This document shows, piece after piece, positions 20,452 through 26,292 of a DNA stretch of 44,759 bases (its first letter is position 1; each line of letters opens with the position of its first letter). The stretch comes from a virus. Below the pieces are notes generated by a model. It did no database searches. It saw nothing but the letters and a program-made list of their open reading frames with translations, and had not been told where the DNA came from. A program made the translations under genes and the position numbers. The stretch spans positions 1-44,759 of the IMG/VR virus record IMGVR_UViG_3300019776_000369; one strand, written 5' to 3'.

Positions 20452-20480
20452 TTGGCAACATAGTTTATCATTGCGATAAT
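20452..20480 (+). promoter_or_regulatory. Sigma-70-type promoter for the head genes
   Basis: TTGGCA (20452-20457), 17-base spacer, GATAAT (20475-20480). It lies before the portal gene and a short leader hairpin, and would drive the structural operon. Confidence 0.65.
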
Positions 20481-20494
20481 TTGAGCAAAACAAA

Positions 20495-20506
20495 CGTCGA
20501 GAGACG
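20495..20506 (+). promoter_or_regulatory. GNRA-loop leader hairpin before the portal gene
   Basis: CGTC-GAGA-GACG, immediately followed by C and the GAGGG ribosome binding site. Similar hairpins precede three other head genes. Confidence 0.55.
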
Positions 20507-20515
20507 CGAGGGAAT

Positions 20516-22879
20516 ATGGCTGACAAAGGCATGAATGACAATGAACTAAAAGCCATGGTGCAAATGGAGATGCGCCAATCATTAGGGTACTCATCGTCAA
20601 AACTATCAAACGCCAGACAGAAGGCCGAGTATTATTATCTTGGCTTGGCTGTTGGTGATCTTTCCCCGCCTGAAGTTGACGGGCGCTCGTCTGTTGTTTC
20701 TACGGATGTTCGAGACACCATTGAAGCAATGCTTCCTCAGCTCATGGTCACGTTCTGCGGCGGTGATACTGTTGCCGAATTTGACGCGCAGACACCAGAC
20801 GACGAGCCAAAGGCAAAGCTTGCCACAGAATACATCAATTACCTTTTCTTCAAGAAGAACAACGGGCATAAGATCGCCTACACTTGGATGAAAGATGCGC
20901 TTCTGCAAAAGAACGGCATCATTAAAGTCTGGTGGGACACTCGCTTTGAAGAGAAGAAAGAAGAATACAAGAATCTCAGCCAGGTAGAACTGGCGCAAGT
21001 CATGGATGATCCAGAGATTGAGGTCATAGCGCAAGACGCTTACCCTGACGAGTATGACGCTAAACAGCGCCAAGAAGCATTAGACCAAGCAAATACCCAG
21101 CTTCAGCAAGCGCAACAAGCCGCCATGCAGGGCAATCCGCAAGCACAACAGGCCGTTGCCCAGCTTCAGCAGCAGATACAGCAGATTCAATCTCAGCCGC
21201 CTGTCATGGCTTATGACATCACATGCAAACGGGTGAACAAAGAAGGCAAGATACAGATAAGCAACGTCCCGCCTGAAGAATTCCTCATTGCACGTAACGC
21301 CAAGAATATACAAGACGCAAAGTTTGTCGGGCACCGCGTACAACGCACAGTATCCGAATTGAAGTCAATGGGCTATAAAAACGTTGACGACATCAGCGGC
21401 GAAGACCAAAGCCAAGCCGTCAACCTGGAGCGCATCCAGCGTCTAAGCTGGAATGACGAAAACGCCTACCTGTCAGACGAAACATCAGTAGATGAAAGCC
21501 AGCGCCTTGTCTGGGTAACAGAATGCTATGTTCGCGTGGACTACGACGGTGACGGCATTGCAGAGCTGCGCAAAGTCACTGTTGCTGGCAATGAAATGCT
21601 AGACAATGAAGAAATCGACATTATCCCGTTTGTTGACATTACGCCCGTTCCTCTGCCGCATACCTTCTTTGGTTTGTCGATTGCTGATCTGGCAATGGAA
21701 AGCCAAAAGGTCAAGACAAGCATTTTGCGCAGTCAGCTTGATAACCTGTACCTGAATGTGAATGGTCGTTACTACGCAGTTGAAAACCAAGTCAATCTTG
21801 ACGACCTGCTGACTTCGCGCCCAGGCGGTGTGGTGCGCGTCAAGCAGCCTAACTCAGTAGGCCGACTTGATCAAGCACAAGGCAACACAGCCGAAACCAT
21901 GGGCTTGATGGAATACATGCAGCAAGACCTAGAAAACCGCACCGGCTGGTCTCGTCAATCCATGGGCAATGATGCGTCTGGCCTGAATGTAGGCACAGCA
22001 ACGCAGGCTAACATTGTCACCAACAAAGCCGACATGCGCCTTGACCTGATAGCGCGCAACTTTGCCGAAGGCTTTGCAGAACTATTCAAGCAAGTCCTGA
22101 AGCTCATAGGCCAGCATCAGAACAAGCGCACTGAAGTCAAGCTGAATGGTCAGTGGGTGGATATTGACCCCCGCGAATGGCGTAATGGTTTCGACGTAAA
22201 TATCAATGTCGGCATTGGCCTGGGCAACAAAGATCAAAAAGTTGGTCACTTGATGGCACTAGCTCAGAAGCAGCAATCTGATATGCAGATAGGTGTTGCC
22301 ACTCCAGAAAACGTTTATAATCTCAATGTCGAATTGTCAAAGACAATCGGCTATAAGAACGCCGACAAGTTTTTCAGTGACCCAAGCAAAGCACCGCCGA
22401 AGCCTGAACAGCCTAATCCAGAACAAATGAAGATTCAAGCGCAGATGCAGCTTGAGCAACAGAAATTCCAGATGCAGACTCAATCTGACCAGCAGAAGCA
22501 CCAAGGCCAGATGCAAGTACGACAAGCAGAACTCGCAGCAGAATCACAAGCAAGGCACGATGAGCTGAACCTTGAAGCAACCAAGCAAATGCAGCAAGCA
22601 CAGTTTGACATGCAGGAACGTCAACACAAAGCCGAGCTTGATGCACAGCTTGAACGTGACAAGTGGGCATATGACGCACAAGAAGCAGAGAAGCAACGAG
22701 CATTTGAAGCATGGAAAGCTCAACTTGATGCTGAGACAAGAATATTGACAGCGCAAATAGCGGCCAAGACAACTGTCACCGCTGCGCAAATAGGCGCTGC
22801 TGAAGCCATAGAGGAAGAAGAACAGGCAGAGATGCCGGGCAATGAAGGTTACGAGCCACAAGAAGGGCAGCCAGAATGA
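20516..22879 (+). CDS. Portal protein
   Basis: 787 aa. It forms the dodecameric ring at the capsid vertex through which DNA is packaged and ejected. Position after terL, length and N-terminal text (YYYLGLAVGDLSPPEVDGRS, then SSVVSTDVRDTIEAMLPQL) agree with portals of podovirus-like phages. Residues about 160-240 and 620-760 are Gln/Ala/Lys-rich coiled coils; the second is long and repetitive (QMKIQAQMQLEQQKFQMQTQ) and ends in an acidic tail. It is larger than the 500-700 residues common in this family because of that extension. The stop overlaps the next start (ATGA). Confidence 0.9.
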   Translation: MADKGMNDNELKAMVQMEMRQSLGYSSSKLSNARQKAEYYYLGLAVGDLSPPEVDGRSSVVSTDVRDTIEAMLPQLMVTFCGGDTVAEFDAQTPDDEPKAKLATEYINYLFFKKNNGHKIAYTWMKDALLQKNGIIKVWWDTRFEEKKEEYKNLSQVELAQVMDDPEIEVIAQDAYPDEYDAKQRQEALDQANTQLQQAQQAAMQGNPQAQQAVAQLQQQIQQIQSQPPVMAYDITCKRVNKEGKIQISNVPPEEFLIARNAKNIQDAKFVGHRVQRTVSELKSMGYKNVDDISGEDQSQAVNLERIQRLSWNDENAYLSDETSVDESQRLVWVTECYVRVDYDGDGIAELRKVTVAGNEMLDNEEIDIIPFVDITPVPLPHTFFGLSIADLAMESQKVKTSILRSQLDNLYLNVNGRYYAVENQVNLDDLLTSRPGGVVRVKQPNSVGRLDQAQGNTAETMGLMEYMQQDLENRTGWSRQSMGNDASGLNVGTATQANIVTNKADMRLDLIARNFAEGFAELFKQVLKLIGQHQNKRTEVKLNGQWVDIDPREWRNGFDVNINVGIGLGNKDQKVGHLMALAQKQQSDMQIGVATPENVYNLNVELSKTIGYKNADKFFSDPSKAPPKPEQPNPEQMKIQAQMQLEQQKFQMQTQSDQQKHQGQMQVRQAELAAESQARHDELNLEATKQMQQAQFDMQERQHKAELDAQLERDKWAYDAQEAEKQRAFEAWKAQLDAETRILTAQIAAKTTVTAAQIGAAEAIEEEEQAEMPGNEGYEPQEGQPE

Positions 22880-23160
22880 ACGACTCGCAACGAATATATG
22901 AGGGCAACCGCGCAACTGAAGTACTTCAAAATGAAGTATTTCAAAATGTGTTTGCCGCCATAGAAAAGGAAATGACAGAGCAATGGATGAATTCACCCGC
23001 AAGAGACGCAGAGGCAAGAGAGAAGATTTACATGTATCTGCAAATGCTCAAGCGGGTAAAGATTCACTTAACAACAGCAATGGAAACAGGAAAACTGACA
23101 TGTCTCGAATTGGAACACAAGAAAAGCCTGGCGCAACGTTTGACGAGCTGGTCAAGCTAG
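22876..23160 (+). CDS. Conserved small head-module protein
   Basis: 94 aa helical protein. Segments EGNRATEVLQNEVFQNVFAA and EQWMNSPARDAEAREKIYMY recur in small proteins directly downstream of portal genes in many podovirus-like phages; function unknown. Starts at an ATGA overlap with the portal gene and overlaps the next gene by 61 bases. Confidence 0.75.
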   Translation: MNDSQRIYEGNRATEVLQNEVFQNVFAAIEKEMTEQWMNSPARDAEAREKIYMYLQMLKRVKIHLTTAMETGKLTCLELEHKKSLAQRLTSWSS

Positions 23161-23312
23161 TTGCTGACTTCGACGTAACGAATGACTCTATCGCTATGGC
23201 GTGGCATCCTGAGCCTAAATCCGAAATGATCTCTGCCAAACGTGGCTGGGTGCGCGTACTGAAAGGTAAAGCTGGTTACGACACGAATAACGGGCTGCAT
23301 GTAGATTTGTAG
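23100..23312 (+). CDS. Hypothetical protein, 70 aa
   Basis: The ATG at 23100 (ACAGGAAAAC upstream) lies inside the previous gene; the upstream part of the frame is a shadow. C-terminal text (SAKRGWVRVLKGKAGYDTNN) is globular. Its role in the head module is unknown. Confidence 0.5.
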   Translation: MSRIGTQEKPGATFDELVKLVADFDVTNDSIAMAWHPEPKSEMISAKRGWVRVLKGKAGYDTNNGLHVDL

Positions 23313-23403
23313 TAAAAAGGTTTGACTAAGAAAATAATTTGTGCATTGGAATCAAGCATGATTTATACTGTCAAGCAATAAGCACTGCTTAGAGTTTTTT
23401 AAC

Positions 23404-23415
23404 GCTCGAAAGAGC
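23404..23415 (+). promoter_or_regulatory. GNRA-loop leader hairpin before the scaffold gene
   Basis: GCTC-GAAA-GAGC, with a weaker copy GTC-GATA-GAC at 23429-23438. It sits 43 bases before the ATG, farther than the other copies. A TATACT at 23364-23369 upstream may be a -10 box, but no good -35 fits. Confidence 0.45.
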
Positions 23416-23457
23416 ATAACGCCTCACCGTCGATAGACCTCGGGCAAAGGAAATAAA

Positions 23458-24435
23458 ATGGACAATCAGGGAACTGAATCCAGCGGTAACGAAGCACTTA
23501 GCATTAACGATGCAACACAAGCTTTTAGCAGTCTGTTTGAAGGAAACGACGAGCAAAGTGCTAAAGATTTAGAAGAAAAGAAGGACGACCCAGAAGCACC
23601 TCAAGACCCTGAAGAGGACAATCCTGAAGCTGATGAGCCTGAGAAAGAAGAACCAGCCGAGCCTGAAGCGGACAGCAATGAAGTCACCATAGAAGTAGAT
23701 GGCAAGACAGTCAAGCTGACCAAAGAGGAATTGGCAGAAGCCTACAAAAATGGTCTGCGTCAATCCGACTACACCAAAAAGACCATGGAAGTAGCCGAGC
23801 AGCGTAAAGCCGCCGAAGCAGAAATGCAGAAAGCGCAGCAAGAGCGCCAACAGTATGCAAACGGGCTAAATAAGCTCAGCGCGCAGATTGAGGGTGATCT
23901 GGCACAATTTAACAACGTCGATTGGAAATCATTATCTGAAAATGATCCTGTTGAGTATGTCCGGTTGCAGCACCTCTTTAACGAGAGACAATCTGCACTC
24001 CAGAAAATACACCATGATCAGCAGTTAATTAAGCAAATCGACCAGCAAGAGTACCAAAAACATTTGAAGATCGTTGAAGCGACGGAATTTCAGAATTTAC
24101 TGGAAAAAATTCCTGAGTGGAAAGACCCAAAAAAGTTTGAAGCAGAGAAGGTTGCAGTTCGCAACTACATGCTTGAAAAAGGTTTTGACGAACAAACTCT
24201 TGCAAATTTGTACGACCATAAAGCCTATTATCTCAGTCGTAAAGCGATGCAATTCGACGCGATGATGGCGAAGGCAAGTGCAGCAGCCAAAAAGGTTGCT
24301 GAAGTGCCGCAAAAAGTATTGAAACCAGGAAGCGGCGAGAAACCGGACACAAGTTCCAACAAGCAAAACATGGAACGACTGAAAAAATCAGGAAGTGTCA
24401 TGGATGCCGCAAACGTATTTAAAGGCTTAATCTAA
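23458..24435 (+). CDS. Scaffolding protein
   Basis: 325 aa placed between portal and capsid genes. It has a very acidic, Glu/Pro-rich N-terminus (about residues 38-75) and a helical, Gln/Ala-rich middle (EVAEQRKAAEAEMQKAQQER). A positively charged C-terminus probably contacts the coat protein. It would guide prohead assembly and leave before DNA fills the head. Sequence is not conserved in scaffolds, so the call rests on composition, size and position. Confidence 0.82.
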   Translation: MDNQGTESSGNEALSINDATQAFSSLFEGNDEQSAKDLEEKKDDPEAPQDPEEDNPEADEPEKEEPAEPEADSNEVTIEVDGKTVKLTKEELAEAYKNGLRQSDYTKKTMEVAEQRKAAEAEMQKAQQERQQYANGLNKLSAQIEGDLAQFNNVDWKSLSENDPVEYVRLQHLFNERQSALQKIHHDQQLIKQIDQQEYQKHLKIVEATEFQNLLEKIPEWKDPKKFEAEKVAVRNYMLEKGFDEQTLANLYDHKAYYLSRKAMQFDAMMAKASAAAKKVAEVPQKVLKPGSGEKPDTSSNKQNMERLKKSGSVMDAANVFKGLI

Positions 24436-24436
24436 A

Positions 24437-24448
24437 CGTCAAGAGACG
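24437..24448 (+). promoter_or_regulatory. GNRA-like leader hairpin before the capsid gene
   Basis: CGTC-AAGA-GACG, followed by CAGGAG, the ribosome binding site of the major capsid protein. The stem starts two bases after the scaffold stop codon. Confidence 0.5.
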
Positions 24449-24462
24449 CAGGAGAAATAATC

Positions 24463-25386
24463 ATGGCAGCACCATCAGGTACCTTTGTTACCACGAGCGC
24501 AATCGGTAACCGCGAAGATTTGACAGACATCATCTATCGCATTTCACCAACCACTACCCCTTTGATGAACCTCGCAGCAAAGGGCAAAGCAACAAATACA
24601 AATCACGAGTGGCAAACTCAAGATTTGGCAGCCGCAGTGACATCCAATGCGCAAGCTGAGGGTGACAATGCATCTGCAAAAACCGTGACCCCTACTGTTC
24701 GTTTGAGCAATTCTACTCAGATTGCGACAAAAACAGTGATCGTCTCCGGTACGCAACAAGCGATGAATCCAGCAGGCCGCAAAGACGAACTGGCTTACCA
24801 GTTGTCCATGGCTTCCCTGGAACTGAAGCGCGATATGGAATCCGCTCTGTGCCAATTGGGTGTTAAGGCATCCTCTCCACGTCAAGCACGTGGTCTGCCC
24901 GGCTGGCTGGTAGATAACGTCGATAACAACGGCGGTACTCTGGCAAGCTACACAGGCAACACTGATCGCACTCTGGGTACACAACGTGCATTCACTGAAG
25001 CCCAGCTCAAGAACGTCTTGCAAAAGATATTCACCGCTGGTGGCGATCCTGACACAATCATGGTCGGCTCTGCACAGAAGCAAACATTCTCCACATTCTC
25101 TGGTAACCAAACCCGTATCGGACAAGCCGCAACGTCTAAACTGGTTTCGTCCATTGATGTGTACGAATCTGATTTCGGCACGATGAAAGTCGTTCCAAAC
25201 CGCTTCCAGCTTGGCCGCGATGCGTTCATCATTCAGTCTGACATGGTATCGATATCTTACCTGCGTCCATTCCAAACCATCGAATTGGCGACAACAGGCG
25301 ATGCGCTGCAACGTGAATTGATTGTTGAGTACACGCTCGAATATCGCTCGCCGAAAAGTGGCGGCGCTGTCTACGACCTATTATGA
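24463..25386 (+). CDS. Major capsid protein (SU10-type)
   Basis: 307 aa, with the text of the SU10-type major head family (DUF5309). It has an N-terminal NREDLTDIIYRISPTTTPLM, a central TATKTVIVSGTQQAMNPAGR-like region, and a C-terminal ELIVEYTLEYRSPKSGGAVY. These proteins have an HK97-like fold and form the icosahedral shell. A GGAG site and a hairpin precede the ATG. A 7-bp cUUCGg hairpin follows the gene. A 255-residue frame on the opposite strand is a shadow. Confidence 0.92.
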   Translation: MAAPSGTFVTTSAIGNREDLTDIIYRISPTTTPLMNLAAKGKATNTNHEWQTQDLAAAVTSNAQAEGDNASAKTVTPTVRLSNSTQIATKTVIVSGTQQAMNPAGRKDELAYQLSMASLELKRDMESALCQLGVKASSPRQARGLPGWLVDNVDNNGGTLASYTGNTDRTLGTQRAFTEAQLKNVLQKIFTAGGDPDTIMVGSAQKQTFSTFSGNQTRIGQAATSKLVSSIDVYESDFGTMKVVPNRFQLGRDAFIIQSDMVSISYLRPFQTIELATTGDALQRELIVEYTLEYRSPKSGGAVYDLL

Positions 25387-25404
25387 TATTGACAACTTAA
25401 ATAT

Positions 25405-25422
25405 AGGCGGCTTCGGTCGCCT
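25405..25422 (+). terminator. UUCG-tetraloop hairpin after the capsid gene
   Basis: AGGCGGC-TTCG-GTCGCCT (one G-T pair) lies between the capsid stop and the next gene. Only three T follow, so partial termination or protection of the abundant capsid mRNA is more likely than full termination. Confidence 0.55.
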
Positions 25423-25446
25423 GTTTGAAAATGAAAGGAAGATATC

Positions 25447-25917
25447 ATGGCAGGTAATTACGTACAGCGTCCAGATGGCGGCGTTGATATCCAGGACTCC
25501 AACTCAGTTGCAGTTGCGTCCTTTGGCGGCGGCGTTCAGAACTACCGTGGCATCAAAGTGGCAAAGATTGCCATTACTGGTGTTGCGGCTACAACTGGCG
25601 GCGCGTTGTTCTCTTGGGCAAACCCTGAGAACAGTTCAATCATCATTGAACGCTTTCAAATTGACATCACAACCAAGTCAACAGGTGCGGCAAATGGCTC
25701 CTTTGGCGTGGCAGCAAATGGTACGACATCAAGCGCAAACTTGATTGATACTTACGCGCTGGGTGGTACTGAGAAAGTCGTCGATAATCATGTAGATGGC
25801 TCAACAAACGGCAAGTTCGTACAGAAAATGACGACTTCGCAGTTTGTGACTGGCACAGGCTCAGCAACTACAGCGGGTTTGGTCGGTAACGTGTATATTC
25901 ACTACTACGTGATCTAA
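25447..25917 (+). CDS. Probable structural protein (capsid decoration type)
   Basis: 156 aa. Gly/Thr/Ala/Ser-rich and beta-strand-rich from end to end, with a good AAAGGAAG site, directly downstream of the capsid gene. Composition and position suit a head decoration or stabilising protein; there is no specific family match. Confidence 0.55.
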   Translation: MAGNYVQRPDGGVDIQDSNSVAVASFGGGVQNYRGIKVAKIAITGVAATTGGALFSWANPENSSIIIERFQIDITTKSTGAANGSFGVAANGTTSSANLIDTYALGGTEKVVDNHVDGSTNGKFVQKMTTSQFVTGTGSATTAGLVGNVYIHYYVI

Positions 25918-25922
25918 GAACA

Positions 25923-25941
25923 GGCGGGTGAAAGTCCCGCC
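25923..25941 (+). other. Hairpin after the 25447 gene
   Basis: GGCGGG-TGAAAGT-CCCGCC, six perfect pairs, five bases after the stop codon. No T tract follows directly. Confidence 0.45.
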
Positions 25942-25962
25942 ATTTCCCGAATTGAAGTAAAA

Positions 25963-25974
25963 CGCTGAGAAGCG
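25963..25974 (+). promoter_or_regulatory. GNRA-loop leader hairpin before a structural gene
   Basis: CGCT-GAGA-AGCG followed by CAGGAG and the ATG at 25987. Relative to the copies before portal and capsid, both stem strands have changed together (TC/GA to CT/AG), so pairing is conserved. Confidence 0.55.
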
Positions 25975-25986
25975 CAGGAGAATTTC

Positions 25987-26292
25987 ATGGATGGTGGATA
26001 TATCACCGTATCAAGCCAGACTACGGGCGTGGCAATCACCACATCCGGCACGTCTGCTTCAGTGACAATACCAAATGATTCAAGTGGCAACCTGCCGCGC
26101 TACATCCGCATAGCTGCGACAGCGCCTGCATGTGTGCGCCTTGGTAAAACGTCGGCTACAGCGGTTACAACAGACTTGCAAGTGCAGCCTGGTGATGCAG
26201 TTATCTTGACAGTGAATGGTAACGACAAGATAGCAGCAATTCAGGTTTCATCTGCTGGTGTCGTGCAGGTATCGCCACTCGAAAACATGTGA
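25987..26292 (+). CDS. Probable structural protein, 101 aa
   Basis: All-beta Thr/Ser/Val-rich protein (SSQTTGVAITTSGTSASVTI), preceded by the leader hairpin and GGAG. Located between capsid and adaptor genes; likely a minor virion component. A short intergenic stretch follows without a promoter. Confidence 0.55.
   Translation: MDGGYITVSSQTTGVAITTSGTSASVTIPNDSSGNLPRYIRIAATAPACVRLGKTSATAVTTDLQVQPGDAVILTVNGNDKIAAIQVSSAGVVQVSPLENM

Follow-up and report, generated by a model that had tools for sequence, protein, structure and literature searches.

A conserved RNA hairpin element ahead of virion genes in diverse phages: a candidate translational operator

The 44,759-nucleotide (nt) viral sequence analysed here (IMG/VR record IMGVR_UViG_3300019776_000369, positions 1 to 44,759; hereafter the window) contains four short hairpins ahead of its portal, scaffold, major capsid and one small structural gene, which a preliminary description, made from the letters alone, had taken to be selected as paired RNA. 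We find that they belong to a conserved element that is absent from Rfam 15 and, judged by sequence comparison, precedes virion genes in many otherwise different phages. Its structure, its position and the class of gene it precedes follow from these comparisons, and from them we infer its function: with a probability of about one half, it is a structured RNA, lying in the 5′ leader of late virion genes, that would act post-transcriptionally as a translational operator.

The evidence for selected pairing comes mainly from relatives, here IMG/VR loci that encode a protein related to the capsid protein. In orthologous capsid leaders of the closer relatives, a hairpin stands at the same spot (GGTC-GCGA-GACC, GGTC-GTGA-GACC, CGTC-GAGA-GACG, CGCC-GCGA-GGCG, TGCC-GAGA-GGCA and TGCC-GTGA-GGCA), mostly two bases ahead of GGAG, and is retained by compensatory changes between the stems GGTC, CGTC, CGCC and TGCC, with true GNRA loops. 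The leader of the gene for a 101-amino-acid (aa) protein also bears the element in relatives, as does the portal leader in some of them. In loci chosen by protein, with no selection for the motif, 33 hairpins with a 4-base-pair (bp) stem and a 4-nt loop were found at GGAG..ATG sites, versus 6 direct-repeat controls; the loop was GNGA in 25 of the 33 and the spacing to GGAG was exactly 2 nt in 29, and hairpins with 3-, 5- or 6-nt loops occurred at background level only.

Scans of the wider collection gave a consistent picture. The pattern AACGYYGNGARRCGCNGGAG allows 16 stem combinations, only 4 of them complementary, and 128 of the 133 sites it retrieved among the matches listed were complementary. 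In 198 non-redundant listed sites, which like those in the other counts are related by descent, positions −5 and +15, the outer pair of the basal helix described below, covary as well (CG 155, TA 10, TG 9, GC 9, AT 2), and their mutual information ranks third, after two stem pairs. Where no ribosome binding site adjoins (60 sites), the pairs (−4,14) and (−5,15) are formed in 93% and 92% of cases, respectively, against 37–57% and 35–55% in controls with the partner slid toward the 3′ end; slides toward the 5′ end are less informative, as they run into the element's own invariant bases. The covariation score of a 63-sequence alignment was 0.384, compared with 0.188 after shuffling and no more than 0.191 when the register was slid. 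Taken across orthologous leaders and unrelated genes alike, the compensatory changes strongly support selection for RNA pairing, as the preliminary description had supposed from four copies.

That description had treated the short hairpin as the unit. The hairpin is indeed there, but the conserved unit is larger, about 20 nt long, with the consensus YYUAA-(NGYN-GNGA-NRCN)-CYGG: a 4-bp apical stem, a UAA/CY (3 × 2) internal loop and a 2-bp basal helix. Nor does the four-base purine loop seen in the window extend to the relatives, where loops follow GNRA, in most cases as GNGA, the second base being free. Alignment of 143 sites gave CYUAA on the 5′ side of the stem and CYGGAG on the 3′ side, with pyrimidines enriched upstream, between about −17 and −3. 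Most copies use the Shine–Dalgarno GGAG as the 3′ basal strand, the ribosome binding site adjoining the apical stem in 138 of the 198 listed sites; a second scan, with a pattern lacking the ribosome binding site, retrieved copies with C-Y-G after the stem and no GGAG close by. Several unpaired positions are invariant, but since the search patterns fixed the two As, C12 and G14, conservation at these positions is partly imposed. The GG of the ribosome binding site is predicted to be less open than in the other leaders of these phages (0.19 versus 0.35), which would be compatible with a regulated site.

A gene start follows 188 of the 198 listed sites, with most start codons 10–19 nt past the stem. 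The 147 distinct downstream proteins among the matches listed fall into about 31 families, mostly of virion genes, including DUF5309, P22-like and HK97-type capsids, several portals, a major tail protein and other virion structural proteins. Capsid and portal types that are unrelated to one another are among them, and the genes concerned are virion genes at large rather than head genes alone. The commonest family is that of the 101-aa gene (40 of the 147). A carrier usually holds two to five copies, all of them on one strand and ahead of late genes. Tandem pairs, 13–30 nt apart, occur in 12 leaders of the 198 listed sites. The scaffold leaders of relatives have a second hairpin, larger in size, 3′ of the element (which is, for example, CGCC-GTGA-GGCG, CGTC-GCGA-GACG or CGCT-GTGA-AGCG), and the ribosome binding site lies roughly 30–40 nt away. 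Because scaffold and tandem copies do not adjoin a ribosome binding site, the element must be more than a spacer for it, and that simple explanation was rejected. We likewise rejected the possibility that the UAA 5′ of the stem serves as an upstream stop codon, as just 20 of 156 end an open reading frame (ORF) of at least 60 codons.

In the window itself, all four hairpins reported earlier exist (Table 1), and in three of them a ribosome binding site begins 1–2 nt past the stem, the scaffold copy being the exception. On the plus strand of the whole window, exactly five hairpins combine a purine loop with a 4-bp stem of three or more GC pairs: the four of these leaders and one within the portal gene, close to its end. 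The 60-nt leaders of 25 late genes contain 5 such hairpins (the portal-end one included), versus a shuffled mean of 0.09, and this count was reached in 0 of 2000 shuffles. With R1, a covariance model, scores within the window were 27.1 bits (E = 2.2e-6) for the 101-aa gene copy, itself a training sequence; 25.2 bits (E = 9.6e-6) for the capsid copy, which was outside the training set and whose AAGA loop deviates from the relatives' loop rule; and 13.7 bits (E = 0.053) for the portal copy, which has one extra base ahead of the ribosome binding site. The scaffold hairpin was not recognised by R1 in the window. Its leader follows the same plan as in relatives with the first hairpin diverged, an AAAGGA ribosome binding site lying about 30 nt beyond that hairpin, past a second predicted one. 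The window thus has two good copies (major capsid and 101-aa gene), one weak copy (portal) and one diverged hairpin (scaffold).

Table 1. Element copies, genes and neighbouring features of the window
Feature	Position	Strand	Details
Sigma-70-like promoter, TTGGCA-17-GATAAT	20452–20480	+	upstream of portal leader; consensus match alone
Portal leader copy, weak	20487–20514	+	hairpin 20495–20506, CGTC-GAGA-GACG; GAGGG ribosome binding site 20508–20512; ATG 20516
Portal protein gene	20516–22879	+	phrog_1216, E = 3.3e-153
Scaffold leader hairpin, diverged	23404–23415	+	GCTC-GAAA-GAGC; relatives have the canonical element at this position
Scaffold leader second hairpin, imperfect	23421–23445	+	GCCU/GGGC, inner GUC-GAUA-GAC; predicted fold; larger second hairpin in relatives
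Head scaffolding protein gene	23458–24435	+	phrog_3927, E = 1e-58
Major capsid leader copy	24429–24455	+	hairpin 24437–24448, CGTC-AAGA-GACG; AGGAG ribosome binding site 24450–24454; ATG 24463
Major head protein gene, DUF5309 type	24463–25386	+	phrog_1328, E = 1.2e-98; DUF5309 from a relative's annotation
101-aa gene leader copy	25955–25981	+	hairpin 25963–25974, CGCT-GAGA-AGCG; AGGAG ribosome binding site 25976–25980; ATG 25987
101-aa gene, 3′ of capsid gene	25987–26292	+	no family match
Rfam int-alpA RNA	2743–2807	−	sole Rfam match in window; separate 65-base RNA gene

Matches to R1 are far from randomly placed: all 51 at E < 0.01 lie in 18 carriers, part of which trained the model, and at the same threshold none occurs in seven related non-carriers or in three named phages. 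The pairing is present in the closer relatives; another branch of relatives, including Pseudomonas prophages, is without the element, as are Rhodoferax phage P26218, EBPR podovirus 1 and others. Pattern scans found sites in 1 of 200 and in 5 of 294 host-group genomes; these five comprised three Undibacterium or Undibacterium-like prophage sites, one other prophage-like tandem site and one non-complementary site. A whole-genome scan of one Undibacterium with R1 returned, at E < 0.05, two prophage sites only. In the host-group genomes scanned, the element is thus essentially absent from chromosomes outside prophages. Mimicry of a host element was considered and rejected, as R1 on one Undibacterium and one Pseudomonas genome again gave the two prophage sites only (E < 0.03). 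Among prophages with this capsid type, the Undibacterium copies have the element, and three Pseudomonadaceae copies and one further Burkholderiales copy are without it; the dependence on host order that these few prophages would imply is suggestive only. Three consensus sequences gave no convincing match in 50,697 phage records, and a comparison with Rfam 15 yielded no family for the window region up to E = 2 and, for eight carrier loci, chance matches below threshold only. We found no relevant account of the element in the literature, of which our coverage is incomplete, so that an earlier description may exist.

Among the roles first suggested for the hairpins, the best fit is to a target held in common or to control of translation. 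The GNRA loop and the internal loop would be recognised by a trans-acting factor, which could be the ribosome, an RNA-binding protein of the host or a phage protein that escaped detection. The binding of this factor would set ribosome access to the ribosome binding site, thereby coupling the production of particle proteins such as capsid, portal and scaffold. The invariant loop, the internal loop, the fixed register and the occurrence of copies next to the ribosome binding site as well as at a distance from it point to recognition by something, and the tandem and distant copies fit factor binding better than simple spacing.

Several observations weigh against the translational operator. No gene family is present in all carriers yet missing from non-carriers, the best carrier-only family occurring in 9 of the 18 genomes, and no CsrA was found in carriers; a shared factor encoded by the phages was rejected on these grounds. 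The lack of any gene whose distribution follows that of the element hints at the ribosome or a host factor, although a diverged phage protein may also be the trans-acting factor. RNAalifold, unaided, sees the apical stem only; covariation is therefore the basis for the basal helix, which some copies, including that of the 101-aa gene in the window, lack. Virion proteins are needed in bulk, and a partly closed ribosome binding site would therefore require an activator or easy opening. Finally, occlusion of the site alone is hard to reconcile with copies that do not touch it. The broader proposal, in which phages with unrelated capsids have kept one RNA operator through which a single host-encoded RNA-binding factor or the ribosome sets virion protein synthesis together, is put forward as tentative.

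Some of the same facts would suit a passive translation enhancer, which we consider rather unlikely. The hairpin would shield the ribosome binding site from longer-range pairing and, with the upstream pyrimidines, aid loading of the 30S subunit, and no regulator would be involved. The fixed 2-nt distance to GGAG, the pyrimidine-rich stretch, the preponderance of particle proteins downstream, the lack of a phage factor common to carriers and the shortness and weakness of the basal helix all agree with it. However, the scaffold and tandem copies away from the ribosome binding site retain the loop, the internal loop and the basal pair, a pure spacer would need neither UAA/CY nor GNGA, and, by prediction, the GG of the site is more closed than it is in other leaders.

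Copies that stand apart from the ribosome binding site, and tandem copies, would also be expected of a signal for mRNA processing or stability, at which an RNase of host or phage, or a protecting protein, would cause the late polycistronic mRNA to be cut into separately stable messages. The position of the element in intergenic leaders of late operons and its single-strand orientation within each genome are in line with such a role, which we nevertheless regard as improbable: a 4-bp stem is, from general knowledge, too short for RNase III, and the strict 2-nt register to GGAG would be unexpected for a cut site. Far less probable still is a signal at the DNA level, that is, a late promoter, an operator or a DNA hairpin promoter. 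An inverted repeat common to different phages and often intergenic could be read in this way, but its orientation and register relative to the ribosome binding site and start codon are strict, it obeys a GNRA loop rule and tolerates U-G pairs in the basal helix, and an ordinary sigma-70-like promoter stands upstream of the portal leader, to judge from its match to the consensus; no phage RNA polymerase was found, in a search that had no control signal and is hence not evidence of absence. Chance, or an inherited repeat without function, might be invoked for hairpins of just 12 nt whose four stems in the window differ in sequence, but is effectively refuted by the shuffled leaders, by compensatory change across many phages with unrelated genes and by the near-absence of the element from host genomes except in prophages.

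Among known systems, the coat operator of RNA phages of the MS2/PP7 type (ANYA loop, bulged A; bound by the phage coat protein, which represses translation) is likewise a small hairpin in phage mRNA, and the element resembles it as a candidate protein-binding translational switch with the ribosome binding site inside the lower stem, as the adjoining sites and the covariation of (−5,15) indicate. It differs in having a GNRA loop and the 3 × 2 internal loop in place of a single bulge, in occurring in several copies per genome and in DNA phages, and in that its binding protein is only postulated. Lambda boxB, the part of the nut site that lies next to boxA and is recognised by N in antitermination, is also a short phage RNA hairpin, capped by a GNRA-like loop of 5 nt, whereas the element has a 4-nt loop on a 4-bp stem (5-nt loops being at background), is repeated ahead of several virion genes and is locked to the ribosome binding site; boxA and N were not searched for. 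CsrA/RsmA sites (ANGGA, with GGA typically in a hairpin loop) share with the element a GGA at the ribosome binding site and, sometimes, several sites per leader, but here the loop is GNGA and GGA is found at the base of the stem, many of the copies at a distance from the ribosome binding site lack GGA, and the carriers have no CsrA gene. The 11-nt receptor of the GAAA tetraloop pairs CCUAAG with UAUGG; the element has a similar 5′ strand, CCUAA, and a 3 × 2 internal loop closed by CC/GG, but its 3′ strand is CYGG and not AUGG. The promoter hairpin of the N4 virion RNA polymerase has a 3-nt loop, a longer stem and a giant phage-encoded polymerase, whereas 3-nt loops were at background here and the longest ORF of the window, the portal gene, has just 787 aa. 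The int-alpA RNA is also structured and lies in the same window, but elsewhere and on the other strand.

To our knowledge, the means by which tailed phages, working from a single late transcript, tune the relative amounts of capsid, scaffold, portal and ejection proteins are well understood in a few models only, and a short element with a clear consensus ahead of such genes in unrelated environmental phages offers a testable handle. If it is a common RNA operator, late genes of unrelated phages would share a post-transcriptional code. As most genes behind it are structural, and several belong to no otherwise known family, it could also aid annotation of virion genes in unannotated phage contigs. 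The gene of about 100 aa at 25987–26292, like its relatives, has no match in PHROGs or Pfam, and its product is probably an abundant head protein.

As to neighbouring features, the putative promoter at 20452–20480 would place the transcript's 5′ end close to the portal hairpin, and the int-alpA RNA suggests a temperate or recently temperate phage. In two loci (L246 and L248), copies of the element lie within terminator-like hairpins, AGCCCTTAACGCTGTGAAGCGCCAGAGGGCTTTTTTT. Three marine relatives (L046, L054 and L063) have, on the minus strand and opposite the capsid-gene strand, a GGGC-GAAA-GCCC hairpin ahead of a AAGAAAGGA ribosome binding site, perhaps a separate element. Between the 156-aa and 101-aa genes of the window, a 6-bp hairpin, GGCGGGTGAAAGTCCCGCC (25923–25941), is kept in relatives as GGCGGGTGYAAG.CCCGCC and is possibly the terminator of the upstream gene. 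The leader of the 156-aa gene carries a UUCG-capped hairpin, GGCGGC-TTCG-GTCGCC (25405–25420), and two relatives have a different GC-rich hairpin at the same spot.

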